Assembly (NCBI GenBank): GCA_002753135.1
Contig: PDZV01000009.1
Location: 1-64,000 of the forward strand
From: Magnetococcales bacterium WMHbinv6
GTDB taxonomy: Bacteria > Pseudomonadota > Magnetococcia > Magnetococcales > Magnetaquicoccaceae
Length of the DNA stretch: 64,000 nucleotides
Reading direction: 5' to 3'
The translations under genes were made by a program, and so were the position numbers. Under the pieces are notes generated by a model that searched no databases, was not told the origin of the DNA, and worked only from the letters and a program-made list of their open reading frames with translations. Each line of letters starts with the position of its first letter. Position 1 is the stretch's first letter. This document shows positions 8,693-23,153 of this stretch, piece after piece.

Positions 8693-9783
8693 CGCTGACT
8701 ACTCCTTCCTTTCTCGTTGCCCCCCTGTCGCGCCGGATTGCTCCAGGGGCCTTGCCAAAACCAGGGTGGCGGATAATAACCGGGATAGTAAGCTCCCATC
8801 GACGCCATGCGTTGCGCATTGCGGCGCAACAGATCCTCTACCCGATCGACAGGCAACGGCCCGTGACATCCGGCACAGTTGTACCAATAGAAACGCTGGT
8901 TCTGCCGCCGTTGTGCCTGCTGCGCCGGATTGGGACGCGCTGCTGGTGGTGAATTGGATTTTTTGATCACACAAAAGGAGGAGACCGTCGGTTTGCTCGC
9001 TTCGCCTGCGGTTTGTCCACTGCTTTCCGAACTTTCCTGGAAAATTTCCGTTCCGCTTGGCGGCCCACTCACCGCCGCTTCTTCGGTTGTCGGCACAACA
9101 GCTGCCACTTTCCCCTCCGGTGGCGCTGCCAGCAGATCGGGCGAGTTTGCACTCTCTGCCAATGATGGCACTCCTTCGGCAACGGTTTGCTCGCCCGGCG
9201 GAGCCGCTTCTGCCGCGACGGCAGGGGTGGCGGCAGGAAGGCTCTCCGACAATGGCTGACTGGGTATTGTTGGCTCGGATGCAGCGACCTGTTGCGGCAG
9301 CACAGCAGTTGCCGCCGGCACAGCCACTTCCGCTGCTGACGGGTTGCTTGCTGCAGCAGGCAGCGCACTTGCTTCGGTGGAAATCGGCTGTTCCGTGATG
9401 GCCGGGCTGGCGGCTACTGACTCAGCAGGTAGCATCGACGAGGGGGCAGCACCGTCACCGGCTGTCATCAACACGCTGCTGTTGGCATTGTTGAGCGGAG
9501 GCTGTTCCGCAACCGGCACGGTATCCACCACCTCATCGGCAGACGTTTCTGGCATTTTTTGCTCGACGGCTGCGCTTTCGCGACCGGGCTGCCCGGATGC
9601 AGTCTCATGGCTGGCGGTCAACTCCGTTTGTTGATCCGCCGTCGACTCGATGGCGGTATGGATGGCCTCGACTGGCGCTGATTCCGGCATCGCCTGCACA
9701 TAAGCGCTGCTCATCCCCAACCAAGCCAACACACCGACCACTCCCCAGCGTACCCCGCCGTTGCGCTGCCCAAGCCTGCTCAT
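8689..9783 (-). CDS. Secreted low-complexity protein with one C-terminal c-type heme motif
   Basis: 364 residues. A likely signal peptide follows the ATG at 9783 ('WGVVGVLAWLGMSSAYVQA'). Residues ~35-270 are Ala/Pro/Glu/Ser/Thr-rich with no recognisable fold and look disordered. Near the C-terminus is a single heme-attachment motif CAGCH (Cys303, Cys306, His307), followed by a Tyr/Pro/Trp-rich stretch ('YYPGYYPPPWFWQGPW'). The likely picture is an exported monoheme protein on a long linker. The family is not known to me. An in-frame extension upstream to 9945 lacks signal-peptide sense and overlaps the neighbouring gene. It overlaps cobA by four bases. Confidence 0.7.
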   Translation of the reverse strand: MSRLGQRNGGVRWGVVGVLAWLGMSSAYVQAMPESAPVEAIHTAIESTADQQTELTASHETASGQPGRESAAVEQKMPETSADEVVDTVPVAEQPPLNNANSSVLMTAGDGAAPSSMLPAESVAASPAITEQPISTEASALPAAASNPSAAEVAVPAATAVLPQQVAASEPTIPSQPLSESLPAATPAVAAEAAPPGEQTVAEGVPSLAESANSPDLLAAPPEGKVAAVVPTTEEAAVSGPPSGTEIFQESSESSGQTAGEASKPTVSSFCVIKKSNSPPAARPNPAQQAQRRQNQRFYWYNCAGCHGPLPVDRVEDLLRRNAQRMASMGAYYPGYYPPPWFWQGPWSNPARQGGNEKGRSSQR

Positions 9784-9826
9784 CGTCTCTCCCCGTCCAT
9801 TCCCTGTTGCCGGTAAGGTTATTGTT

Positions 9827-10801
9827 TTAGCCGACCCATCCTTGACCAGGCGGCGTTTCCACCAAAGCCCGCACCACTTCACACCAACCTTTGGCAATAT
9901 TGTTGGCATTATAGCCCCCACCTCCCAATGCCAACACCCGTCCATGCCCCATCGATTCTGCCAATTGTACCAGACGCGCCGTCACCAGATAGTGCGTGGC
10001 CGGAGAGAGACGCAACTGGGTAATCGGATCACCGGCGATGGAGTCGGTACCCGCCTGCAAAATGAAAAATTCCGGCTTGTGTTGCTGCAAAAAGGCCACA
10101 ACCTGAGGCCAAACCTGGGCAAAATGGCTGTCACCGGCTCCGGGTGGCAGACAAATGTTCAATTTGCTCCCTTCAGCCTCCCCTTTGCCTCGTTCGTGGC
10201 TGAAACCGGTTCCCGGATACAGGGTGCGACCATCTTGATGCAAATCGGCAAAGATCAAATCAGGATCGGTTTCAAACGCATAAAAAACACCGTCGCCATG
10301 GTGGGCATCAATATCGATATAGGCCACTTTGCGAATGCCATGTTTGGCCCGCAAGGCATGCACCACCACCCCGGCGTCGTTAAAGACGCAAAAACCACCG
10401 GCCATCTCCGGTCGGGCATGGTGCAAACCGGCAATCGGAATAAAAGCCCGCCGATAGCGGCCTGCCATGATATCCTCCATCGCCTGCAGCGCCGAACCGA
10501 CCACATGCACCGCAGCTTCAAAGACACCCGGAAAGGCGGGTGTATCGCCATGATCCAACAAACCAAAACCGCTGCGCGAACAAGCCTGGACCAAAGCCAC
10601 ATAGGAAGGATCATGAAAACGGTGCAAATCTTCCACACTGGCCGCCACCGGTTGGCGAACGGCCACCCGATTGTCCAAACCGGTACGGCACGCCTCCTGC
10701 CAAAATACCCCCATGCGATGCGGACCGAAGGGATGTCCGTCAGGAAATCCATAACGAGCAATCTCTTCACCGATGGTTACACTGGTCAGAAATTCGGCCA
10801 T
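9827..10801 (-). CDS. Histone-deacetylase-like / acetoin-utilisation-type zinc hydrolase
   Basis: 324 residues of the HDAC/AcuC/acetylpolyamine amidohydrolase superfamily. The active site is visible: tandem His 'GLHHARP', zinc ligands in 'DIDAHHGDGV' (Asp and His) and 'AGTDSI' (Asp), and the late 'GGGGYN' Tyr. Bacterial members deacetylate acetyl-lysine proteins, acetylpolyamines or related amides; the substrate is not predictable here. I chose the ATG at 10801 with AGGA five bases upstream. A TTG at 10837, right after the previous stop, would add 12 residues and is less likely. It sits 36 bases downstream of rquA on the same strand. Confidence 0.9.
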   Translation of the reverse strand: MAEFLTSVTIGEEIARYGFPDGHPFGPHRMGVFWQEACRTGLDNRVAVRQPVAASVEDLHRFHDPSYVALVQACSRSGFGLLDHGDTPAFPGVFEAAVHVVGSALQAMEDIMAGRYRRAFIPIAGLHHARPEMAGGFCVFNDAGVVVHALRAKHGIRKVAYIDIDAHHGDGVFYAFETDPDLIFADLHQDGRTLYPGTGFSHERGKGEAEGSKLNICLPPGAGDSHFAQVWPQVVAFLQQHKPEFFILQAGTDSIAGDPITQLRLSPATHYLVTARLVQLAESMGHGRVLALGGGGYNANNIAKGWCEVVRALVETPPGQGWVG

Positions 10802-12765: not shown

Positions 12766-14430
12766 TTACCGTTCCGGTATCGCAAAATCCATCACCAGTA
12801 AACGTTTTCCCTGCCGAAGGCCGACCGCATCGGTCAAGGTGCCAATCGCGATACCCACCTCCTTGAGAGAAGTCTGCATCAAAAGGCGACAGGCTTCCGG
12901 TTGCTCCAACCAGCGATGGATCACCGCCTCTTCCTGGCGATCCAGCCATAACAGATACTCATAGCCCGCCGCCGATCGATAGCCCTGTTGCCGCCAACGG
13001 GCAAACAGATCCCTGCCGTCGACGCTCTTGATCCCTGGCCGGCGCTGCAGCACCTGCTCCCGGGCATGCCCCGCTGCCGCCTGCGCCAACGACTCCTGCC
13101 AACGCAAAGGAGCTGCCGGCACCATCTCCTGCGCCCCACAACGCCGCTTTTCGCTGCGCAACTGATTCAACAGCGACAGGATTCCTGGCGCAGTTTGCGT
13201 CTGCACATCTTGCCCCTGCTGGCGCACGGCTCCTGCCCTTAATTCGGGATAAACCTGTCGCAACCCCTCTTCCAACTCGCCATACAACGCCGCCGCACGC
13301 GCCGCATCGTAGCCATTGAACAGCGCAACCAAACTTATATCATTTCCATGCTGCGTCCACTGCTCCGCCAGCGCGTGCATACCCCGTTGCACCCCCTCCA
13401 TCTGCCAATACTGCCCGGTCTCTCCAGCACGACGGGGTTCGCCGCTGCCCAACCAGTAGGCGGTCACAAAGCGACCCAGGGCACGGGCTGTGGCAATCAA
13501 ACCACCGGCAGCCAGCAAATTTTCCTGGTGATACCCTCCATCCGGCGCATAGACCTGTTTGCCGGGGGCAAACAAGGAGGGCACCAAGGTATCGTCGATA
13601 TATTCCGGCTCTCGACCATCCCGGTCTGCGGGTAACGAACGGGCAGCCTGCACCTCACTGGCCGCCACCTGCAGCGGAGCAAAAATCAGCTGATGCATCA
13701 AATCGACGTAGCTTTTGCCACCCGCCTGCTCAACCACCAAGCCAAGCAGTTCATACCCCAGATTGGAGTAGGCCTTGGCAGTACCAACCGGCGGTTGCGG
13801 CGGCTTGAGCAGGGCATAACGCAATAAATCCAGACGGGCAGGTGGCACCGCCACCCCCAATTGCTGCGCCACCCGCAACTCCATCAAAGCCGGATCTTCC
13901 TGGCGACTGCCCAATCCAGCCTGGTGCGCCAACAAATGCTGCAGCGTTACCGCTTCCCAACCGGTTGCCACAGACCAATGGGTTGGAATCGTCAGCCAAC
14001 ATCTCCCCTTATGGTTTTTTTCAGAAAAACAAAAAGCATAATCGCTGAGCTGCAACCGCCCCTGCCGTTGCAAACTCTTCAGCATGGCCTGGGTAATCAG
14101 CTTGGCAAGACTGCCAATACGCAACAGGGCAGTCGGCTGCATGGCAATCCGTTGCGCCCGATCCGCCCAACCAAAACCCTGTTCAAAGACAATCTGACCA
14201 TCCTTGACCACCAGCAGCACACCGCCCCGATAGGCACGCTGTTGCATCGCCTGCAGCATCGCCTGCTGCAAGGGGTGCCACTGTCCGACGGTTTCTCTTT
14301 GCGGCGCAAAATTTTCTCCAGCGGCATACCCCAAACCACTGGCAAAAAAGAGTACAACAGCAAGCAGTCGTTCTACAAAAACGCAGCGCAACCCAAAAAA
14401 CGGTTGAGCTGCCCCTTTGTCATCACTCAT
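12766..14430 (-). CDS. Serine beta-lactamase-like hydrolase fused to a CAP-like domain
   Basis: 554 residues. A signal peptide or anchor ('LLAVVLFFASGLGYAAGENF') precedes a class C beta-lactamase/penicillin-binding-like domain (~45-390). It has the catalytic SxxK motif 'GSLAKLIT' (Ser107, Lys110) and a YxN-type motif in 'AYSNLGYELLG'. The C-terminal ~130 residues resemble a CAP/SCP-PR1 domain: 'LLNQLRSEKRRCG', 'LRWQESLAQAAAGHAREQ', 'RWLEQPEACRLLMQTSLKEVGIAIG'. The CAP region lacks the usual 'FSHxxSDG' and 'GENI' strings, so it is degenerate. Family members are esterases or peptidases acting in the envelope. The start overlaps the stop of the HD-GYP gene by four bases. Confidence 0.82.
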   Translation of the reverse strand: MSDDKGAAQPFFGLRCVFVERLLAVVLFFASGLGYAAGENFAPQRETVGQWHPLQQAMLQAMQQRAYRGGVLLVVKDGQIVFEQGFGWADRAQRIAMQPTALLRIGSLAKLITQAMLKSLQRQGRLQLSDYAFCFSEKNHKGRCWLTIPTHWSVATGWEAVTLQHLLAHQAGLGSRQEDPALMELRVAQQLGVAVPPARLDLLRYALLKPPQPPVGTAKAYSNLGYELLGLVVEQAGGKSYVDLMHQLIFAPLQVAASEVQAARSLPADRDGREPEYIDDTLVPSLFAPGKQVYAPDGGYHQENLLAAGGLIATARALGRFVTAYWLGSGEPRRAGETGQYWQMEGVQRGMHALAEQWTQHGNDISLVALFNGYDAARAAALYGELEEGLRQVYPELRAGAVRQQGQDVQTQTAPGILSLLNQLRSEKRRCGAQEMVPAAPLRWQESLAQAAAGHAREQVLQRRPGIKSVDGRDLFARWRQQGYRSAAGYEYLLWLDRQEEAVIHRWLEQPEACRLLMQTSLKEVGIAIGTLTDAVGLRQGKRLLVMDFAIPER

Positions 14431-17222
14431 CCCACACTCACATAGCGGGCGACATCGACTTCATCGATCTGCTCTGGCAACAGATATTTTTCGGCATACC
14501 GTTTGTAGACCCCGGAGGTCAGGAACAGATCAAAGAGAAGCGGATCAATATGGCCATCCTTCTTGAAGAAAAAGAGAATTTTTACCGCTTCTGACAATTT
14601 TTTGGCCTTTTTGTAGGGACGGTCAGAGGCCGTCAGCGCCTCAAAAATGTCGGCAATGGCCATGATCCGTGCCGGAACGGTCAATTGCGTTTTGTCCCAT
14701 TTACGCGGATAACCGCTACCAATCAGGGTTTCATGGTGTGAACCGGCATACTCTGGCACCCGTTGCAACTCTTTGGGCAATGGCAACGACTCCAGCATGA
14801 TGATGGTCTGAATCACATGCTCGTTGATCTTGAAGCGCTCTTCCTCGGTCAAGGTCCCCCGCCCGATGCTCAGATTGTACAACTCGCCATAGTTGTAGAG
14901 ATGTTCCGGCACCTTCACTTTGAAGCCGTATTGCGGATCTGCCACACTGAAATCGGTTCGGGGAATGATATGTTCCGGTCGATCTGCCAACAGTTTTTCT
15001 TCGATGGGCAAAGTCGGTGCTTCTGCCGGATAGCGCTGCAACTCCACATGCGACAAGCCGATGCGATCATCAAAATGACGCACCCAGGTCTGCTCGGCAA
15101 GAACCTTCAGACGGGCCAAACGGTCCGGTGAGGTAAACTCATCGCCCAGATTGCATTCGGCCACAAAAGCAAAATCCTCCTGCAACTGCTCACGACGCGC
15201 CTCAAATTGCTGCTGGGCAACCGACTCTTCCACACCATCGGCAATTGCCTGCCAACGGGCGATGGCGGCATCACGCAGCAACACCTCAAAACGCATGCGC
15301 ACTTCATGCAGACGGTTGTAAATTGTCTCCAGCTTGCATCCTTTATCCACCACATATTCCGGAGTGGTTACCTTGCCGCAGTCATGCAACCAAGCCCCGA
15401 TCCGGAACTCCCGCCACTCTGCCTCGCCTTCCAACTGAAAGGTTGCCAACTCCCCTTCCTCAACCTTGCAGGCCTCCTCAGCCAACATGATGCCCAGTTC
15501 CGGCACCCGTTCGCAGTGGCCGCCGGTGTATGGACTCTTGGTGTCGATTGCGCCGGCGATGAGGCGGATCAAGGCTTCCATCAGGGCTTTTTGCGATTCG
15601 ATCAACTTGTGGTTGTCCAGAGCAACCGCCGCCTGCGTGGCCATGGCGGTGACAAAGCGAATCAATTCGGGATGGAAGGTGGTAATCTCCTGGGTTTCTG
15701 GATCCAAGGCGTTGAGAAACTGCAGCACCCCGATCACCTCGCCTTCGCGGGGCGCCAAAGGAACCGTCAGCATGGAAACGGTCTTATAACCGCTGCGTTC
15801 GTCGAACCGTTTGGTTCCGGTGACATCAAACCGGGTTTCCTGATAGATATCGTCAATCGCCACCGGTTTGTTATGCAAGGCGCACCAAGTGGAAATATAG
15901 CGTTCTACCGGCTTGCCCTGTTCATCGTAGAGCGGAATCTCAAATGAGGGCAGTGCCTCTTCGTCATTGGTGCGCAGGGTAAAGGCCAGCGTCTTATGAT
16001 CGGTCACCAGGTAGAGTGTACCGGCATCGCAGTGCAACAGATCGCGGCCACCAAAAAGAATTTTACGCAACAGAGCCATGCGGTTCTGCTCACTGCCCAA
16101 CTCCAATCCGGTACGAATCAAATTTTCCAGCTTGCCCTGACTGGTCAGCAGATCTTTGGTGCGACTGGCGACATCTTCCTCCAAGCGCTCGGCATGCTCC
16201 TCCAATTTTTGATGCACAGCCTGCAATTTGGCCTGGTTTTCCTGATCACGAAGATGCGCCTGCCGACGCGAGATCAAAAAGGCCACCAACAAGGCGGCAC
16301 CAACACCAGCAGGAACATCAATCATCAAGCGGCGGGACAGGTTGCTCCATGTGGTGGTATCCTCCAGCACAACCAACTTCCACATACCGATCGGATCATG
16401 CCAGTCGATGGTGCTTTGCAATACCGCATAGCGCACGCCATCAAGGACGGCAAAATCTTGGTTTAAATCAAAAGGCAAACGAACCGGGGGCGATTTTTGG
16501 AAAATTTTGCCAAACTGCTTCAAGGTGTTAATCTCTTCTACACGATCTGCGGTGGGCTCCACACCGATGCGGTACATCCAATCTTTGTGGGAGGAAGAGA
16601 AAACCACCGACTGCGGCGACAAAAGAAAAGCGCGGGTTCCCATGCTCGTCAAATCATCATCGAGAAAATCAGCAAGCATTTTGACCACCACGGCACCGAT
16701 CACGTCACCATCCGGTTGATCCGTACTGCGTAACGGTGCGGCAACAAACAGACCACGCTCACCAGTATTGGCTCCGACAGCAGCATAGACGCTGATCATG
16801 CCAGCCATGGCCTGTTGCCAATAGGGACGAAAGGTCAAATTCATCCCGGTATAGGAGACCCGGGTTGAATCATGCGCCACAACGATACCATTGGCATTGA
16901 CGATATAGGTCCCGTCTGCCTTCAACAGACGGGTGACAGCACGGATCCGTTCCAAAACCGCGGGATCATCGGGAGAAAGTTTGCCCAAAGCGGCCTGTTT
17001 GACGACGGGTTCATTCAAACCCAAAACTAAAGCAATACCCATCGTTTGACCGTTGATGGTCTGCGAGGCAATTTTCCAGGCACTGTCTGCTGCTCGAACG
17101 CGCAACCAGGCCAACTGTTCTTTTTCAAAATCACGCAGCGTATAGTAATCAACCACCCATCCGGCGGACACCGCAACCACCACCGACAGCAGAGCCGTGA
17201 AAACACGCCACAGCGTAGTCAT
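14427..17222 (-). CDS. Cache-GAF-HD-GYP signalling protein (probable c-di-GMP phosphodiesterase)
   Basis: 931 residues. An N-terminal membrane helix is followed by a Cache-type sensor (~40-300), a second membrane helix, a coiled coil (~320-365), a GAF domain (~380-540) and an HD-GYP domain (~545-925). The metal site 'WLHDCGK' has His613 and Asp614. The GYP loop reads 'SHHETLIGSGYPRKW', close to the canonical form. About 115 residues are inserted between HDCGK and the next conserved helix ('NEHVIQTI'), longer than usual. Members hydrolyse c-di-GMP to pGpG or GMP. It is co-transcribed with the downstream beta-lactamase/CAP gene (ATGA overlap), tying that hydrolase to this signal. The ATG at 17222 has AGGGGG rather far upstream. 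Confidence 0.92.
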   Translation of the reverse strand: MTTLWRVFTALLSVVVAVSAGWVVDYYTLRDFEKEQLAWLRVRAADSAWKIASQTINGQTMGIALVLGLNEPVVKQAALGKLSPDDPAVLERIRAVTRLLKADGTYIVNANGIVVAHDSTRVSYTGMNLTFRPYWQQAMAGMISVYAAVGANTGERGLFVAAPLRSTDQPDGDVIGAVVVKMLADFLDDDLTSMGTRAFLLSPQSVVFSSSHKDWMYRIGVEPTADRVEEINTLKQFGKIFQKSPPVRLPFDLNQDFAVLDGVRYAVLQSTIDWHDPIGMWKLVVLEDTTTWSNLSRRLMIDVPAGVGAALLVAFLISRRQAHLRDQENQAKLQAVHQKLEEHAERLEEDVASRTKDLLTSQGKLENLIRTGLELGSEQNRMALLRKILFGGRDLLHCDAGTLYLVTDHKTLAFTLRTNDEEALPSFEIPLYDEQGKPVERYISTWCALHNKPVAIDDIYQETRFDVTGTKRFDERSGYKTVSMLTVPLAPREGEVIGVLQFLNALDPETQEITTFHPELIRFVTAMATQAAVALDNHKLIESQKALMEALIRLIAGAIDTKSPYTGGHCERVPELGIMLAEEACKVEEGELATFQLEGEAEWREFRIGAWLHDCGKVTTPEYVVDKGCKLETIYNRLHEVRMRFEVLLRDAAIARWQAIADGVEESVAQQQFEARREQLQEDFAFVAECNLGDEFTSPDRLARLKVLAEQTWVRHFDDRIGLSHVELQRYPAEAPTLPIEEKLLADRPEHIIPRTDFSVADPQYGFKVKVPEHLYNYGELYNLSIGRGTLTEEERFKINEHVIQTIIMLESLPLPKELQRVPEYAGSHHETLIGSGYPRKWDKTQLTVPARIMAIADIFEALTASDRPYKKAKKLSEAVKILFFFKKDGHIDPLLFDLFLTSGVYKRYAEKYLLPEQIDEVDVARYVSVG

Positions 17223-17418: not shown

Positions 17419-18018
17419 TTACAAAATATCAAAATGTTCCAACTCCAGCAAACGACGCAGAGCAATCAAGGGTAAACCGATAAGTGCGGTCGGATCTTCC
17501 CCAAGCAAACGTTCAAACAACACGATCCCCAACCCCTCTGATTTAAAACTACACGCACAATCATAAGGCATATCTCGACGCAAATAGCGCTCTATCACCC
17601 CCTCATCCAGGGTACGAAACACCACCTGAAAGGGCACGACCGTGCTGTGACAACGACCAGAAGCGCTATGATACAACACCAGCCCGTTGAGAAACTGTAC
17701 CGTTTGCCCAGAAACCTGCCGCAATTGCCGGAGCGCCGCTTCATGACTGCCGGGTTTACTGAGCAAAATTGCCTGTGGATCCGTTTCATCACCCAGCACC
17801 GCCACCTGATCGGCACCGATGATCAAGGCATCCACATAACCATTGGCCACTGCACGGGCTTTTGCTTCTGCCAGACGCAGGGCCAACTGACGAGGCGTTT
17901 CCCCCGGCAGAGGGGTCTCATCCACCCCCGGGCGGGCCGTCTCATAGGCCAAACCGTAACGGTCCAGCAATTGACGACGATAGGGCGAGGTGGAGGCCAA
18001 AACCAAGGTCGGTTTCAT
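17419..18018 (-). CDS. yceF: Maf-family nucleotide pyrophosphatase, YceF type
   Basis: 199 residues matching the Maf/YceF branch throughout: 'LVLASTSPYRRQLL', 'PGVDETPLPGETPRQLALRL', 'IIGADQVAVLGDE', 'CACSFKSEGLGIVLFERLLG' and 'DPTALIGLPLIAL'. YceF enzymes hydrolyse 7-methyl-GTP; other Maf branches act on dTTP, UTP and modified pyrimidine triphosphates, so this is a house-cleaning enzyme against non-canonical nucleotides. The ATG at 18018 has GAGG five bases upstream and lies seven bases after the stop of the preceding membrane-protein gene. It is the last gene of a seven-gene minus-strand set that includes dcd. Confidence 0.93.
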   Translation of the reverse strand: MKPTLVLASTSPYRRQLLDRYGLAYETARPGVDETPLPGETPRQLALRLAEAKARAVANGYVDALIIGADQVAVLGDETDPQAILLSKPGSHEAALRQLRQVSGQTVQFLNGLVLYHSASGRCHSTVVPFQVVFRTLDEGVIERYLRRDMPYDCACSFKSEGLGIVLFERLLGEDPTALIGLPLIALRRLLELEHFDIL

Positions 18019-18025
18019 CACCACC

Positions 18026-18655
18026 TCACGGGGCAAATTGATAATAGATCAACTCCACAGAGACCTGATCCAGCCAACCCAAAGGTGCCTGCGTGGCATC
18101 CACATAAAAATCGCGCACCTCATCCGGGCGCATCGGTTTCACCTTGTCGCCATACAAACCACCAGAGACCACCAGCGGGTTGACGGCTCGACGGGCCAAT
18201 AATGTGGCCTTGTTATCCAGGAAAAGAATATCCATCCTGGCGTTATCCACCACCCGATTGCCATGGTGGGAGATGCGGACCTGAATGCGCGGTTGCTCAG
18301 GCAGCGATTTGTCGATTTCAATCTGATCGACCAACAGCAACCCCCGGTCAAAAGCGGGCGATTTGCCGCTTTCAATTCTGACCCCCCCTTTGATCCGGGC
18401 ATTGACCGCTGCCGAAACCTGATTGAGTTTTTCTGCCTCACTGCCCCAATCTTTCTGCGGATCAAAGGCCACTGGCGGCAGTTCGGGAATCCATTGCGTC
18501 AACCAGTTGCCTTTCGGTTTGCTGTCTGCCAAAGCCAATTCGGCATCCGAGGGGCGGACAAACATCATCCGAAAGCCCACGACCAACAGGATGATTCCCA
18601 ACAGCGCTCCACCGGCGATCATCCATACCCGCTTGTTTTTGATGGCCTCAATCAT
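18026..18655 (-). CDS. Single-pass membrane protein of unknown function
   Basis: 209 residues with one N-terminal membrane helix ('VWMIAGGALLGIILLVVGF') and a periplasmic-type remainder. The C-terminal half looks like a beta-sandwich ('PRIQVRISHHGNRVVDNARM', 'DEVRDFYVDATQAPLGW'), reminiscent of domains that describe protein-protein or ligand contacts, but I do not recognise a family. The ATG at 18655 has GGAGG close upstream and overlaps the dcd stop by eight bases, so it is translationally coupled to dcd. That makes it an odd partner for soluble nucleotide enzymes. A longer frame to 18727 would overlap dcd more deeply and is not favoured. Confidence 0.75.
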   Translation of the reverse strand: MIEAIKNKRVWMIAGGALLGIILLVVGFRMMFVRPSDAELALADSKPKGNWLTQWIPELPPVAFDPQKDWGSEAEKLNQVSAAVNARIKGGVRIESGKSPAFDRGLLLVDQIEIDKSLPEQPRIQVRISHHGNRVVDNARMDILFLDNKATLLARRAVNPLVVSGGLYGDKVKPMRPDEVRDFYVDATQAPLGWLDQVSVELIYYQFAP

Positions 18656-19247
18656 CTTTGCCCTCCGCATAGGAATCCTGCACGATACGACTGGAAAGGG
18701 GTCCGTCCTGACCGTGATACTTGGCACCCTGCTTCACCCCATACGGCTTACTGGTCGGCGAAGAGAGCAGTTCAAAAGAGATGGCACCGATACGCATACC
18801 CGGCTTCAATGCCAGCGGCAACCGTCCCGCATTAAAAAATTCAAAGGTGATGTGGCCATCCCAGCCCGGATCGACCGCATGCGCCGTGATATGTACCATC
18901 AAACCGACACGGGCCAAACTGCTGCGCCCATCCAACCAACCGACAATATGGTCGGCCAAACGCACCCGCTCCAGGGTCATGCCCAAGGCAAACTCGCCCG
19001 GATGGAGAAAAAATTGTTCATTTTCACCAAGCTCAACCGTTTTCATGATCTGCTCGGAGACCGAATAGCGACCAGAAATGGCCGACAAATCCAAAAACGG
19101 CGTCGCACTCGGCTGAAAGGTCTGAAAACGGTTCCCCAAGCGGACATCCACGGAAAAAGAGCCAAAACTCTCCGCAGAAGGCCGTGGTTCAACGACAATC
19201 TCACCACTGGCCATGCGCTGCAACACATCCCGATCCGACAATCTCAT
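18648..19247 (-). CDS. dcd: dCTP deaminase
   Basis: 199 residues of the trimeric dUTPase/dCTP-deaminase fold. Diagnostic segments are 'MRLSDRDVLQRM', 'SFSVDVRLGNRF', 'FFLHPGEFALGMTLERVRL', 'GWLDGRSSLARVGLMVHITA', 'HAVDPGWDGHITFEFFN' and 'GMRIGAISFELL'. The Ala-His before the catalytic-region acid matches dCTP deaminase. It yields dUTP from dCTP, which then needs a dUTPase to give dUMP for thymidylate synthesis. It overlaps the upstream ParB-like gene by four bases and the downstream membrane-protein gene by eight. The same operon holds a thymidylate-synthase-like gene at 20597-22087. Confidence 0.95.
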   Translation of the reverse strand: MRLSDRDVLQRMASGEIVVEPRPSAESFGSFSVDVRLGNRFQTFQPSATPFLDLSAISGRYSVSEQIMKTVELGENEQFFLHPGEFALGMTLERVRLADHIVGWLDGRSSLARVGLMVHITAHAVDPGWDGHITFEFFNAGRLPLALKPGMRIGAISFELLSSPTSKPYGVKQGAKYHGQDGPLSSRIVQDSYAEGKDD

Positions 19248-19888
19248 ATAAGAATACTCCGCTTGCGCTGCTTTTGAATGCCGGGAAACACTTCATTGAA
19301 ATCCCGAAACAGATCTTTATAGTTCTCTGGATCGCGATAGGCTTTTTTTACATAGTCGGCAGGCAAAACCGACAACTCCTGCACATCATCCCAACCGTTG
19401 GCCAGCGGATAGGCATAATAGGGCCACTGCCGGGGCACGTTCGTTACTGCAACGACATGAATCGGCAACCCCATGCGCATGGCCGTATAGACCCGGTGCA
19501 TGCCATCGTTGATCAGTGGCAGCACACGCCCATCCGGTTCATGCGACATTTCCACCACAGGCGGCGTCAATGGAATCGGCCCCTCCTCCTCCTCTTCCTC
19601 TCCATAACGGAGCCAGAACAACAAACCGCCCGACAAGGCAAAAATGTTGATCCCCTGCTGCAAAAAAAGCGTATACAAAGTGTGCAGGCGTTGATGGTCC
19701 TCTTGCAAGACATAATTCTGTGCCGGATACAACGAACGGGGATCCACATCCCGCCACAACTGTAGCGCAGACTGTTCATAAATCAACGGTCGACCAAAAC
19801 CGCGCAAGCGGGTCTGCTGCAAACGCTGCAATAACAGCTCTTCGCTCAGGGTTTCCATACGGGTAATGGTCAGCGCTTGTTTGGACAC
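19244..19888 (-). CDS. ParB-like-fold protein of unknown function
   Basis: 214 residues. The central block 'VLPLINDGMHRVYTAMRMGL' carries a DGxHR signature as in ParB/Srx-type nucleotide-binding domains, followed by 'IHVVAVTNVPRQWPYYAYPL'. An acidic run of six Glu sits in the middle ('RYGEEEEEEGP'), where length may vary between strains. It likely begins at the GTG at 19888, seven bases after the HAD stop, with AGAAGG crowded against the start; an ATG at 19858 has no ribosome site. It is coupled to dcd by an ATGA overlap. ParB-like domains are now known as CTP or ATP enzymes, which would fit a nucleotide operon, but that is inference. Confidence 0.6.
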   Translation of the reverse strand: MSKQALTITRMETLSEELLLQRLQQTRLRGFGRPLIYEQSALQLWRDVDPRSLYPAQNYVLQEDHQRLHTLYTLFLQQGINIFALSGGLLFWLRYGEEEEEEGPIPLTPPVVEMSHEPDGRVLPLINDGMHRVYTAMRMGLPIHVVAVTNVPRQWPYYAYPLANGWDDVQELSVLPADYVKKAYRDPENYKDLFRDFNEVFPGIQKQRKRSILI

Positions 19889-19894
19889 CTTCTG

Positions 19895-20590
19895 TTACTC
19901 CCGGTTCAATTGACCAGCCATCCATTGCCGGAAATGGTCAGCCGACAAACTTTCCAGCGAAGCCACGGTCACATCCGGCTTTGGCAGAGAGCCATTGACA
20001 ACCGCCACCAACTCCGGCAACTCCTTGTGCGGACGATGCAGCACCCAGACCGTTTTCAGCCCCAATTGGCGGGCAGGGGCCACATCCATGGTATAGGTAT
20101 CCCCCACCATGATCACCTGTTCTGCCGACAGGCCGGTCTGTTGCACCGCCCGACGATAGAGTTCTGGCTCTGGTTTGGCAATTCCCTGCTGAAAGGAGTA
20201 AAAACCAGGGCAACAGAGACTCTCCTTCGGCAGCAACTGCCGGAACCCCTCATAAAAAGGGCTCCAGATATTGGAAATAAAACCAAACGGTATTTTTTGC
20301 TCCTGCAGTTGCGCCAAGAGGGTGCTGGCACCAGGCAACAGGTAGGCCTCTTCAATCTGCGCCCGCCACAACTGCCGCACCGTCTCTCGCGTTAACGAGT
20401 CAGAGGTATGAAACAGACCACCGATATGATCGGCCAACTGTTCGGCATCGGCAAAAGGATGGGTAAAGAGAATATCCATCAACACGGAGCGGGCCGACCC
20501 CGGCAGGCCCAACGCTTCCACCAGGCGGCGGGCCGGTCCCTGACTGGGACCGCCCATCAAGGTAAATCCGATATCAAAATAGATGAACAT
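19895..20590 (-). CDS. HAD-superfamily hydrolase
   Basis: 231 residues with the four HAD motifs. Motif I is 'YFDIGFTL', motif II 'GFISNIWSP', motif III Lys in 'GIAKPEPELYRRA', and motif IV 'VIMVGDTYTMDV'. In motif I the second Asp of DxD is Gly, a variant seen in several 'FDxGxTL' subfamilies that lack the usual acid-base residue. The cap is helical, as in YjjG-like phosphatases, many of which act on nucleotides such as dUMP and dTMP. A TTG three bases upstream is possible, but the ATG at 20590 is preferred. It follows the thymidylate-synthase-like gene by six bases. Confidence 0.88.
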   Translation of the reverse strand: MFIYFDIGFTLMGGPSQGPARRLVEALGLPGSARSVLMDILFTHPFADAEQLADHIGGLFHTSDSLTRETVRQLWRAQIEEAYLLPGASTLLAQLQEQKIPFGFISNIWSPFYEGFRQLLPKESLCCPGFYSFQQGIAKPEPELYRRAVQQTGLSAEQVIMVGDTYTMDVAPARQLGLKTVWVLHRPHKELPELVAVVNGSLPKPDVTVASLESLSADHFRQWMAGQLNRE

Positions 20591-20596
20591 CAACCG

Positions 20597-22087
20597 TTAC
20601 TCTTCCTGCTTCGTCACCGGCAGTTGCATCTGCCAGCGAGCCATCTCCCGCCCCAAAAACAGGGCATGCCCCACATCCGCAACTGCACAATCCCGAGCCA
20701 ACTGTTTTTCAATCACTTCACTGCTCCGCCCCCGATACTCTTTGAGCAGCTGTCCCTGATAGCGATGGTGGACCACCAACTCTGCGGCCTCTTGATCGAC
20801 GCTGATCACAAACTCCCCATGCGGATCGATGCGCATGCTGCGTCTGCCCGTCGCCGGATCCACCCGATCATCACTTTTTCTCGCCTCGGCCACGGCTTTG
20901 GCCCTGGTCAGACCATCCCCTTGCGGATCGATGCTGATTGAATGGCTGATCAAGGTCAACGTGCCGATCGCCAAACCGACCTCTTCGGCCACATGGCGCT
21001 GAATGGCCATTAAACCATAACAGTTACGCAACCAGCCATCCAGGGCATTATGGGTACGAAAGGTTGCCGTCAGGGTTAAGCTTTCTCCCCAGGTGCGGAA
21101 AAAGAGACTCACCAGACAGGGATGGCCGCGCACATCCAACAAAATATCGCGGCGACTGTCCCACAAAGAGAGATAGGCACGCCGTGACTCTCTATCCTCG
21201 CGCAAATGGGCGATGGCCAAGGCCAATCCATCCACCGGCTGTCCATCAAGCTGAAAATGGGCCCGTAAACGGTTGCCATAGGTATAGGGCTGTTCCATCG
21301 ACAGCCTGCCATCCAACAACGTCTGCTGATAGGCCTGCAAGGTCGGCAAAGAGAAGCCCCACTTGGCCAACACCTCCGCGCTTTCCACCTGTGGTTCCTC
21401 GACAACCACCTTGAGGTTCAACAGCTCAATCCGCTCTCCCTTGCGCAGTTGCCGGCGTTGGCCAAAGCGGAACAGACGAAAGACAACCTCCTGCCACGCC
21501 TCCAGAGGAGTATGGCGCAGAATGGTGTGTCCGGCAGGATGTGACGGATACCACTGCACTTCCGGCTGACTCAGGGTACGTTGCACCCGGGGCAAAGTAC
21601 AGGGCTGCAGCGCTGGCAGCGCGGCAAAAAAGGCCTGCAACCGGTTTGGCATCGTCTCTTCATTGTCTTGACTGAAATCCACCACCTGCAACGGACGATG
21701 GCGAAAATCCTCTGGCAGAACCGATCCGTCCAACCTTTTTTCCGTACCGATGATGCGCACCATGGCACTGCCCAGATAGTGGGAAGGTTCAACCCCCAGG
21801 GTGAAAAAATTGAGCAACTCCTGACGGGAACCTGCCAAATCTTTACCAAAAATCAAAATGGATGCAATCTGCGGATTGTATAACAGATTGAGCAACATTT
21901 CCGCCAAGCCGTTACCGTACAAGGTGCTGATCACGGCAATGCGCGAACAATGCGCTTGCAGATCGACCCCCCATTGCCCCAGTTTTTTGCGGATCAGCGC
22001 CGGAGGGGTCCACAACGTCACCACCCCCACATCACCCAGCGGATTGATTATCTGCAGACGATCCTTGTAATACAGGGGTTCAAACAT
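20597..22087 (-). CDS. Thymidylate-synthase-like protein with an N-terminal DUF4346/MtrA-like domain
   Basis: 496 residues. Residues ~1-180 ('NPLGDVGVVTLWTP', 'RIAVISTLYGNGLAEMLL', 'NPQIASILIFGKDLAGSRQE', 'MVRIIGTEKRLDG') resemble the DUF4346/MtrA-type domain, which is associated with pterin proteins. The C-terminal half resembles archaeal-type thymidylate synthase: 'RGHPCLVSLFFRTW' places a Cys (Cys324) where the catalytic Cys sits, and 'FRTHNALDGWLRNCYGL' plus 'AEEVGLAIGTLTLISHSISI' match the dUMP-binding helix and strand. The HxY phosphate-contact pair appears lost (S and D), so dUMP specificity is uncertain. The ATG at 22087 overlaps the upstream stop by eight bases; a GTG at 22108 is the alternative. 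Possibly it methylates or hydroxymethylates a nucleotide. Confidence 0.68.
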   Translation of the reverse strand: MFEPLYYKDRLQIINPLGDVGVVTLWTPPALIRKKLGQWGVDLQAHCSRIAVISTLYGNGLAEMLLNLLYNPQIASILIFGKDLAGSRQELLNFFTLGVEPSHYLGSAMVRIIGTEKRLDGSVLPEDFRHRPLQVVDFSQDNEETMPNRLQAFFAALPALQPCTLPRVQRTLSQPEVQWYPSHPAGHTILRHTPLEAWQEVVFRLFRFGQRRQLRKGERIELLNLKVVVEEPQVESAEVLAKWGFSLPTLQAYQQTLLDGRLSMEQPYTYGNRLRAHFQLDGQPVDGLALAIAHLREDRESRRAYLSLWDSRRDILLDVRGHPCLVSLFFRTWGESLTLTATFRTHNALDGWLRNCYGLMAIQRHVAEEVGLAIGTLTLISHSISIDPQGDGLTRAKAVAEARKSDDRVDPATGRRSMRIDPHGEFVISVDQEAAELVVHHRYQGQLLKEYRGRSSEVIEKQLARDCAVADVGHALFLGREMARWQMQLPVTKQEE

Positions 22088-23153
22088 TTGCTTCTTGGCT
22101 TTCGACACTCAGGATGCGCCGAATTTCGTCGGTTTTAAATCCTATCGCCATGGGCCGCCGCACACCGGGCAGCACAACCACATCGTAGAGTTCCTCGACA
22201 ATACCTTCCATCCGCAACCAATGAGGGCTATCGCCGCTACGCAGATCAATGACTTGCAGGCCGCAACGCGGCTCACTGCGCCGGGATTTGAGCAACTCAT
22301 CCAGAGGCAGACCGGAAAAAGTCTTATTATGCCGTGGTTTGGACAACCCAACCACCGCAAAATCGCCAAACAGGCTCAAGCCCCTCAGATAACCAGGACA
22401 AAAACAGACCGGCTCAAAACGCCCGCTCTGCAGATCGGCATAACCAAATTCGCCGGTACCGGAATTGAGCAGCCACAGGCGATCCTGGTGCCAGCGCGGA
22501 GAATGGGGCATGGACAAGCCGCGCAACACCACTTCATTGCTGGCAACATCGATCACCACCCCGCCATTGGCGCGATAATCACGCCAGCCATCGGCCACAT
22601 CCGATTCGCTCACCGCCGTGACATGGGCTGCCCGACCATCCCGCATGGCCAACCCGTTGAGATGGCAACGATCTTCAGCGGCCAGTTTGCTGAGAAAAGC
22701 AGGTTTCCACAACGGCTTGAAGCTGTGCGTCTCGCTTAAGGTGGCCAAACAACCAAACAGGGTGTTGACAAACAGCAGACGGCCATCCTGGTCAACCCCC
22801 ATATCATGAATATCGATATCGCCTGTGGTATAGCCGACCTGCGGCAGATAGAGACGATCAAAACCATCCTGCGACTGCCCGTTCTCCAGCACATTCTCAA
22901 AGCGCCACACCTGATACAAACTGCTCATATATAAACCGTTTTTGCTGGCACACAACCCCATGCAACGGTTGAAAGTGCGCTCAAAGACAGAGAGTTCCTG
23001 GTTGGCCTTGCTGCCCAAAAGAAAAAATTTACCGATCTGGTAGGTGGTAAAAGCCAAAGAGAGATTTTGTTCCGCCATCCAGGGTAACAGTTGCCGTGAA
23101 GTGGTGATTTCCAACGGTGGTGCCGAAACGGCTGGATCGGTCTGTTCCATCAT
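22080..23153 (-). CDS. TIGR03032-family (DUF4915) protein
   Basis: 357 residues with strong resemblance to the TIGR03032 family: 'LPWMAEQNLSLAFTTYQIGK', 'SVFERTFNRCMGLCAS', 'YTTGDIDIHDMGVDQDGRLL', 'HSPRWHQDRLWLLNSGTGEF' and 'LSLFGDFAVVGLSKPRHNKT'. The pattern implies a beta-propeller. Family members have no established activity; some are fused to TPR or glycosyl/prolyl-hydroxylase-like proteins. It has no signal peptide. The ATG at 23153 has AGGG 11 bases upstream; a frame reaching 23207 lacks a ribosome site. It is the first gene of the operon leading to dcd and yceF, divergent from tatD. Confidence 0.82.
   Translation of the reverse strand: MMEQTDPAVSAPPLEITTSRQLLPWMAEQNLSLAFTTYQIGKFFLLGSKANQELSVFERTFNRCMGLCASKNGLYMSSLYQVWRFENVLENGQSQDGFDRLYLPQVGYTTGDIDIHDMGVDQDGRLLFVNTLFGCLATLSETHSFKPLWKPAFLSKLAAEDRCHLNGLAMRDGRAAHVTAVSESDVADGWRDYRANGGVVIDVASNEVVLRGLSMPHSPRWHQDRLWLLNSGTGEFGYADLQSGRFEPVCFCPGYLRGLSLFGDFAVVGLSKPRHNKTFSGLPLDELLKSRRSEPRCGLQVIDLRSGDSPHWLRMEGIVEELYDVVVLPGVRRPMAIGFKTDEIRRILSVESQEANV

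Follow-up and report, generated by a model that had tools for sequence, protein, structure and literature searches.

The window analysed here comprised 64,000 nucleotides from Magnetococcales bacterium WMHbinv6 (contig PDZV01000009.1, positions 1 to 64,000), whose genome was 3.84 Mb in size and 96% complete. It contains an operon of seven minus-strand genes, one of which encodes a thymidylate synthase (TS)-like domain joined to two further domains; this protein, termed the fusion below, is the subject of the analysis. With the likely starts used, neighbouring genes either overlap by 4-8 bases or are separated by gaps of 7 bases or less. The genes, their packing and the family names, which had been described in a first-pass annotation made by a model from the letters alone, were confirmed, with the following profile matches.

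17419-18018, minus strand: Maf-type nucleotide pyrophosphatase, yceF (PF02545, 5.6e-47)
18026-18655, minus strand: one-pass membrane protein (no Pfam, NCBIfam or PHROG match)
18648-19247, minus strand: dCTP deaminase, dcd (TIGR02274, 4.2e-59)
19244-19888, minus strand: ParB/Srx-fold protein, Pfam Parb-CE (PF24392, 2.6e-30; motif DG[MI]HR)
19895-20593, minus strand: HAD-family hydrolase (PF00702, 2.8e-13; motif I D-I-G-x-T)
20597-22087, minus strand: the fusion, a putative thymidylate synthase (TIGR03283, 1.9e-31; PF00303, 5e-7; PF14251, 1.8e-13)
22080-23153, minus strand: TIGR03032/DUF4915 protein (TIGR03032, 1e-148)

The open reading frame (ORF) of the fusion (20597-22108) encodes 503 amino acids; the start used by its homologs is the ATG at 22087. 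In A4 numbering (the ORF residue minus 1), an MtrA-like domain was located at about 17-110, the TS domain at about 202-392 and a pterin-binding DUF4346 domain at about 427-495, respectively. The N-terminal domain was assigned by profile comparison with hhalign (E 4.7e-8), and the C-terminal one by PF14251 (PterinBD-DUF4346), in agreement with the extra pterin-associated domain that the first-pass annotation had noted; pterin binding by this domain was proposed earlier, as the Pfam name shows. The central domain matched the methanogen TS profile TIGR03283 with profile positions 10-193 of 201 aligned. All 34 homologs matched this profile along almost the full length of their TS domain (best 2e-33), which is compact and of archaeal type. 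The fusion differs from the methanogen enzyme in its added MtrA-like and pterin-binding domains, its mostly bacterial distribution and its obligate ParB-fold partner (see below). Since stand-alone MtrA-PterinBD proteins without a TS domain exist (L041 type, whose N- and C-terminal domains are homologous to those of the fusion), the fusion looks like such a protein with a TS domain inserted. One L041-type protein of 406 amino acids is encoded at L041:457-1677(-) in bacterium G113. The fusion is further set apart from this type by a Ser near the cobalt-ligand His of MtrA: the nearest position was Ser in 30 of the 34 homologs and Ala or Thr in the others, and corrinoid chemistry is unlikely because this His is not conserved.

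An AlphaFold2 model of the fusion (predicted local distance difference test score, pLDDT, 90.8) was compared with the PDB by Foldseek, and 399 chains were matched at E<=1e-3. The CMP hydroxymethylase MilA was the closest single match (1.9e-13), only marginally ahead of true thymidylate synthases (2e-12), and the TMt to canonical ThyA was up to about 0.66. By this predicted structure, together with the conserved Cys, Arg166 and Asn177 equivalents described below, the fusion was confirmed as a member of the thymidylate synthase superfamily (ThyA fold), a fold which the first-pass annotation had assigned to the C-terminal half and on which it had staked its proposal.

Absence of genes was judged by family profiles, and many of the carriers were metagenome-assembled genomes (MAGs). 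The question raised by the first-pass annotation, whether a canonical thyA or thyX stands elsewhere in the genome, was answered in the negative, the fusion being the only PF00303 match and no Thy1 (PF02511) match being obtained. Among 48 genomes of the order, the fusion was found in 25, thyX in 19, both in none, neither in 4 (only 65-76% complete) and canonical thyA in none; the mutual exclusion of fusion and thyX was significant (Fisher p 8e-10, shared ancestry not corrected for). The fusion, unrelated to ThyX in sequence and fold, is thus an exact phylogenetic replacement of it in the order. Genus g2 holds both states (8 fusion, 3 thyX), and more than one swap must therefore have taken place. 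Exchange at the same locus was rejected, as none of the operon genes occurs around thyX in five thyX genomes.

In a scan of named genomes, 49 fusion loci were found in Magnetococcales, Thiotrichales, Rhodospirillales/Azospirillaceae/Roseomonas, Bryobacterales (Acidobacteriota), Actinomycetota, Patescibacteria, Eremiobacterota and a Pacearchaeon. After G272 and G434 had been counted as one genome and G443 had been equated with G004, 26 of the 29 distinct fusion genomes outside the order were without thyA and thyX, thymidine salvage genes not being searched for. In the tree, the nearest kin of the fusion were other Magnetococcales, including Ca. Magnetaquicoccus inordinatus UR-1, and the sequences from Thiotrichaceae and Patescibacteria fell within the Bryobacterales clade, which implies that the gene was transferred between phyla. 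The fusion TS of a MAG labelled Bordetella parapertussis (L097) also nests in Bryobacterales, and this record is almost certainly mislabelled. A phage or plasmid origin was rejected, as no module was found in the plasmid, phage or IMG/VR collections searched; a match in Pseudomonas phage Epa5 was an ordinary phage TS with 28% identity.

Active-site residues were mapped by profile alignment to canonical ThyA together with column counts in 34 diverse homologs, and are given in Escherichia coli numbering. The equivalents of Cys146 (in a PC motif), Tyr94, Arg166 and Asn177 were invariant in 34 of 34 homologs, and that of Arg126 was kept in 33; the candidate catalytic Cys of the first-pass annotation is thereby upheld. 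In T4 dCMP hydroxymethylase (T4 dCH), the Asn177 position is occupied by Asp179, on which the recognition of cytosine critically depends (PMC6400193), whereas it was Asn in 34 of 34 members of the fusion family; a cytidylate hydroxymethylase is therefore not indicated, and the conserved Asn points to a uracil nucleotide as the likely substrate. By alignment, the nucleotide end of the active site thus appears TS-like and the folate end altered, and the fusion has a shorter N-terminal part than canonical ThyA. An ungapped alignment to MilA suggests that the His207-x-Tyr209 sugar contacts are gone. The residues of this HxY pair touch the sugar 3'-OH in thymidylate synthases, so that the loss claimed in the first-pass annotation seems real, but not the phosphate contact ascribed to it.

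The order TS-HAD-ParB-CE was found to recur in Magnetococcales, Bryobacterales, Thiotrichales, alphaproteobacteria, Conexibacter and Phycicoccus; it was also found in the Pacearchaeon with a different HAD protein. In Patescibacteria, the cluster comprised a HAD protein, ParB-CE, dCMP deaminase, TS and dUTPase. Of the 49 fusion loci, 16 include dcd; in those of Magnetococcales the gene lies downstream, in those of alphaproteobacteria upstream. Only in L051 and L052, the two nearest relatives, was the full seven-gene order seen, and the conserved unit is therefore smaller than the operon, namely TS-HAD-ParB; as this order crosses phyla, the unit is better conserved than the first-pass annotation had thought. 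Its recurrence, with the genome-by-genome tracking described next, is more than chance. Neither outcome that the first-pass annotation had named as refuting was obtained, since the TS fold is present and the neighbourhood reaches far past close relatives.

A ParB-CE gene was present in 24 of the 25 fusion genomes of the order, against 0 of the other 23 (Fisher p about 2e-12, kinship not corrected for), and the sole fusion genome of the order without it was 57% complete. Since its presence tracks the fusion even where the two genes lie on different contigs, which is stronger than neighbourhood, ParB-CE behaves as a required (obligate) partner, and the suspicion of the first-pass annotation that the ParB-like protein belongs to the system was well founded. 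G036 has the fusion and ParB-CE in two copies each; G035 and G042 have a single fusion but ParB-CE twice. The AlphaFold2 model of ParB-CE (pLDDT 92.6) matched the ParB/Srx fold by Foldseek (3cyi with probability 1.0 and TMt 0.59; also 6sdk and 1vk1), with weak E-values (best 2.9e-3), the structures matched being sulfiredoxin-ATP, SerK-like and ParB-CDP. No direct PDB sequence match to any solved superfamily member was obtained. The DGxHR-type nucleotide site of the ParB CTPases, sulfiredoxin and SerK-like proteins is shared as a conserved DG[MI]HR motif, but the position of the sulfiredoxin catalytic Cys (G-C-H-R) was Met or Ile in 28 of 28 homologs, and a sulfiredoxin identity was rejected. 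From its fold and motif, ParB-CE is probably a nucleoside triphosphate (NTP)-binding enzyme.

For the HAD protein, 24 homologs were aligned, and the usual DxD form of motif I was found in none, D-I-G-x-T with an invariant Gly in place of the second Asp being present in 24 of 24. Because of this replacement, the nucleotidase label is not safe. YihX has a DxG motif and yet is a phosphatase, and by this analogy D-I-G may be compatible with phosphatase activity. The remark of the first-pass annotation that such proteins are often nucleotidases thus does not carry over directly to this one, but has some backing from an NT5C-type nucleotidase that stands in its place in a Patescibacterium (L078). 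The neighbours dcd, dCMP deaminase, dUTPase and NT5C nucleotidase, found near the fusion in several lineages, converge on deoxyuridine monophosphate (dUMP), and the deoxynucleotide context proposed at first pass therefore holds. Beside the fusion, the Maf gene was seen in 4 loci and the membrane protein gene in 5, all of them from the same genus as the window, and linkage of the TIGR03032 gene is limited to L051 and L052; since their linkage is confined to the genus, these three proteins were treated as passengers.

The first-pass annotation had suggested a modified pyrimidine nucleotide rather than deoxythymidine monophosphate (dTMP) as a possible product, or a nucleotide-modification or sanitation system. 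Such a role would accord with the altered active-site residues, with the HAD and Maf neighbours and with the two actinobacteria that carry the fusion in addition to thyA. It would, however, leave about 51 genomes without any thymidylate synthase; the fusion replaces thyX one for one, the Maf, membrane-protein and propeller (TIGR03032) genes are not linked to it beyond the genus, and the module occurs in no phage or plasmid of the collections searched. Both proposals are accordingly regarded as very improbable. Instead, since the fusion is the sole TS candidate, replaces thyX one for one, keeps the uracil-selecting Asn at the position of Asn177 and has dUMP-producing neighbours, it is with high probability the cell's only thymidylate synthase, converting dUMP to dTMP in place of ThyX or ThyA. 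The ParB/Srx-fold protein would be its obligate partner, a HAD hydrolase would act alongside, and dcd would feed the reaction.

Several observations weigh against a thymidylate synthase. The fusion reached 109.1 bits with TIGR03283, below the equivalog cut-off of 174.55 bits, and 10.9 bits with canonical ThyA (TIGR03284), below its cut-off of 108.35. The position of the folate-binding Asp169, on which hydride transfer by ThyA depends in an important way (PMC6400193), was Asn in 33 of 34 homologs, that of Arg127 was variable, and neither the Arg21 and Glu58 regions nor the His207/Tyr209 pair were identifiable by alignment. No member of the fusion family has a known activity. The large share of MAGs makes gene absence less secure, and in bacteria without both TS classes thymidine salvage is the usual explanation (PMC1971073). 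Finally, a Shapirobacterium has thyX (its fusion being only 23% identical), and Phycicoccus flavus and Conexibacter have a canonical thyA adjoining the fusion module, so that the fusion is not the only TS in every carrier; in the two actinobacteria a replacement may be under way, or the fusion may have a separate role. In Conexibacter the canonical genes form a folA-thyA pair beside the module (L093, about 9450-10790), and in Phycicoccus the thyA beside it is in L091.

Canonical ThyA requires dihydrofolate reductase (DHFR) for the recycling of dihydrofolate, and hydroxymethylases, which release tetrahydrofolate (THF), do not (PMC1971073, PMC6400193). FolA was absent in 48 of 48 genomes of the order, fusion and thyX carriers alike; outside it, just 4 of the 26 genomes with the fusion as sole TS had FolA. 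Overall, 47 of 51 such genomes were without it, against its presence in 10 of 10 canonical thyA genomes of the comparison set (p 1e-8; FolA being the only DHFR searched for). In this independence from FolA, the fusion differs from ThyA and resembles ThyX, whose proposed product it shares, and the methanogen TS, the control methanogens being without DHFR as well. A carrier role of tetrahydromethanopterin is unlikely: TIGR00144, the marker of its biosynthesis, was absent in 48 of 48 genomes of the order, with positive controls.

For dTMP synthesis by the fusion, the following course is proposed. dcd would supply dUMP via deoxyuridine triphosphate, and, by homology with TS, the Cys of the PC motif would attack C6 of dUMP, and C5 would receive a methylene group donated by a reduced pterin, most probably 5,10-methylene-THF. 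The pterin-binding domain may help to hold the folate donor. The ParB/Srx-fold protein, as a probable NTP-binding enzyme, would act as obligate partner, in line with its co-occurrence, and the HAD hydrolase, a frequent partner, probably acts on a deoxypyrimidine phosphate. Because the fusion genomes mostly lack DHFR, the methylene group would be reduced by a non-folate donor as in ThyX, or else dihydrofolate would be recycled by a non-FolA reductase.

Two versions of dTMP synthesis, which differ in their chemistry, were weighed for the last steps. In a ThyA-like version, dihydrofolate is formed and a reductase other than FolA recycles it; ParB-CE then serves in regulation or assembly, and the HAD protein as a house-cleaning nucleotidase. 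The kept Cys, Asn177, Arg126 and Arg166 positions are consistent with it, as are the four fusion carriers that have folA; moreover, since the thyX genomes of the order also lack folA, a non-FolA source of THF must already exist there. The regular presence of folA with canonical thyA, set against its loss from most carriers, argues the other way, and a protein that did no more than regulate could hardly be expected to persist in nearly all fusion carriers of the order while being lost in all others, so that this version can be held only tentatively. In the second version, the TS domain makes 5-hydroxymethyl-dUMP and THF, and the ParB/Srx partner phosphorylates the CH2OH group for reduction to dTMP, with neither dihydrofolate nor a need for DHFR. 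The top fold match to MilA, the Asn in place of an Asp critical for hydride transfer, the THF-releasing chemistry of hydroxymethylases together with the lack of DHFR in most carriers (PMC6400193), the relation of the ParB/Srx fold to small-molecule kinases, and the pyrophosphorylated 5-hydroxymethyluracil intermediate made in DNA by phage phi-W14 (PMC5977210) all point in this direction. However, no conserved reductase recurs beside the module across the fusion loci, the kinase role is drawn from fold alone, at the weak Foldseek E-values given above, and fold likeness cannot separate the two chemistries when MilA is barely ahead of true thymidylate synthases; hydroxymethylation is considered improbable. 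Somewhat broader, and also rather unlikely, is a third thymidylate route with a mechanism unlike those of ThyA and ThyX, in which the pterin-tethered TS would add the one-carbon unit without oxidation of THF, the NTP-using ParB/Srx partner would activate a 5-hydroxymethyl or exocyclic-methylene intermediate, and another donor would reduce it, without DHFR.

Synthesis of dTMP is essential. In bacteria ThyA and ThyX are held to cover it (PMC1971073), and about 51 genomes of several phyla without either have the fusion enzyme in common. A search of open-access papers, directed at DUF4346, at TS in relation to tetrahydromethanopterin and MtrA, and at genomes without both TS classes, yielded no account of the fusion system and no earlier tie of the ParB/Srx partner to nucleotide synthesis. 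If the fusion is a thymidylate synthase, a pathway hole would be filled, a ParB/Srx-fold family would be given a metabolic role, and a ThyA-fold enzyme would be shown to be able to work without DHFR, which bears on the poorly known mechanism of methanogen TS (PMC9012536).

Some further TS-like proteins and neighbours were observed. In Azospirillum isscasi, a second TS-like protein of 207 amino acids (L105:2330-2950(-)) has Asp where dUMP enzymes have Asn, and is a candidate cytidylate-type hydroxymethylase. In the Pseudomonadota genome G300, a 258-amino-acid TS-like protein stands directly after a C1-peptidase-like ORF (L039:597-2028(+)). Directly downstream of the operon, at 14427-17222 on the minus strand of the window, an HD-GYP/GAF-domain-like protein is encoded, the position of which is conserved in L051 and L052.

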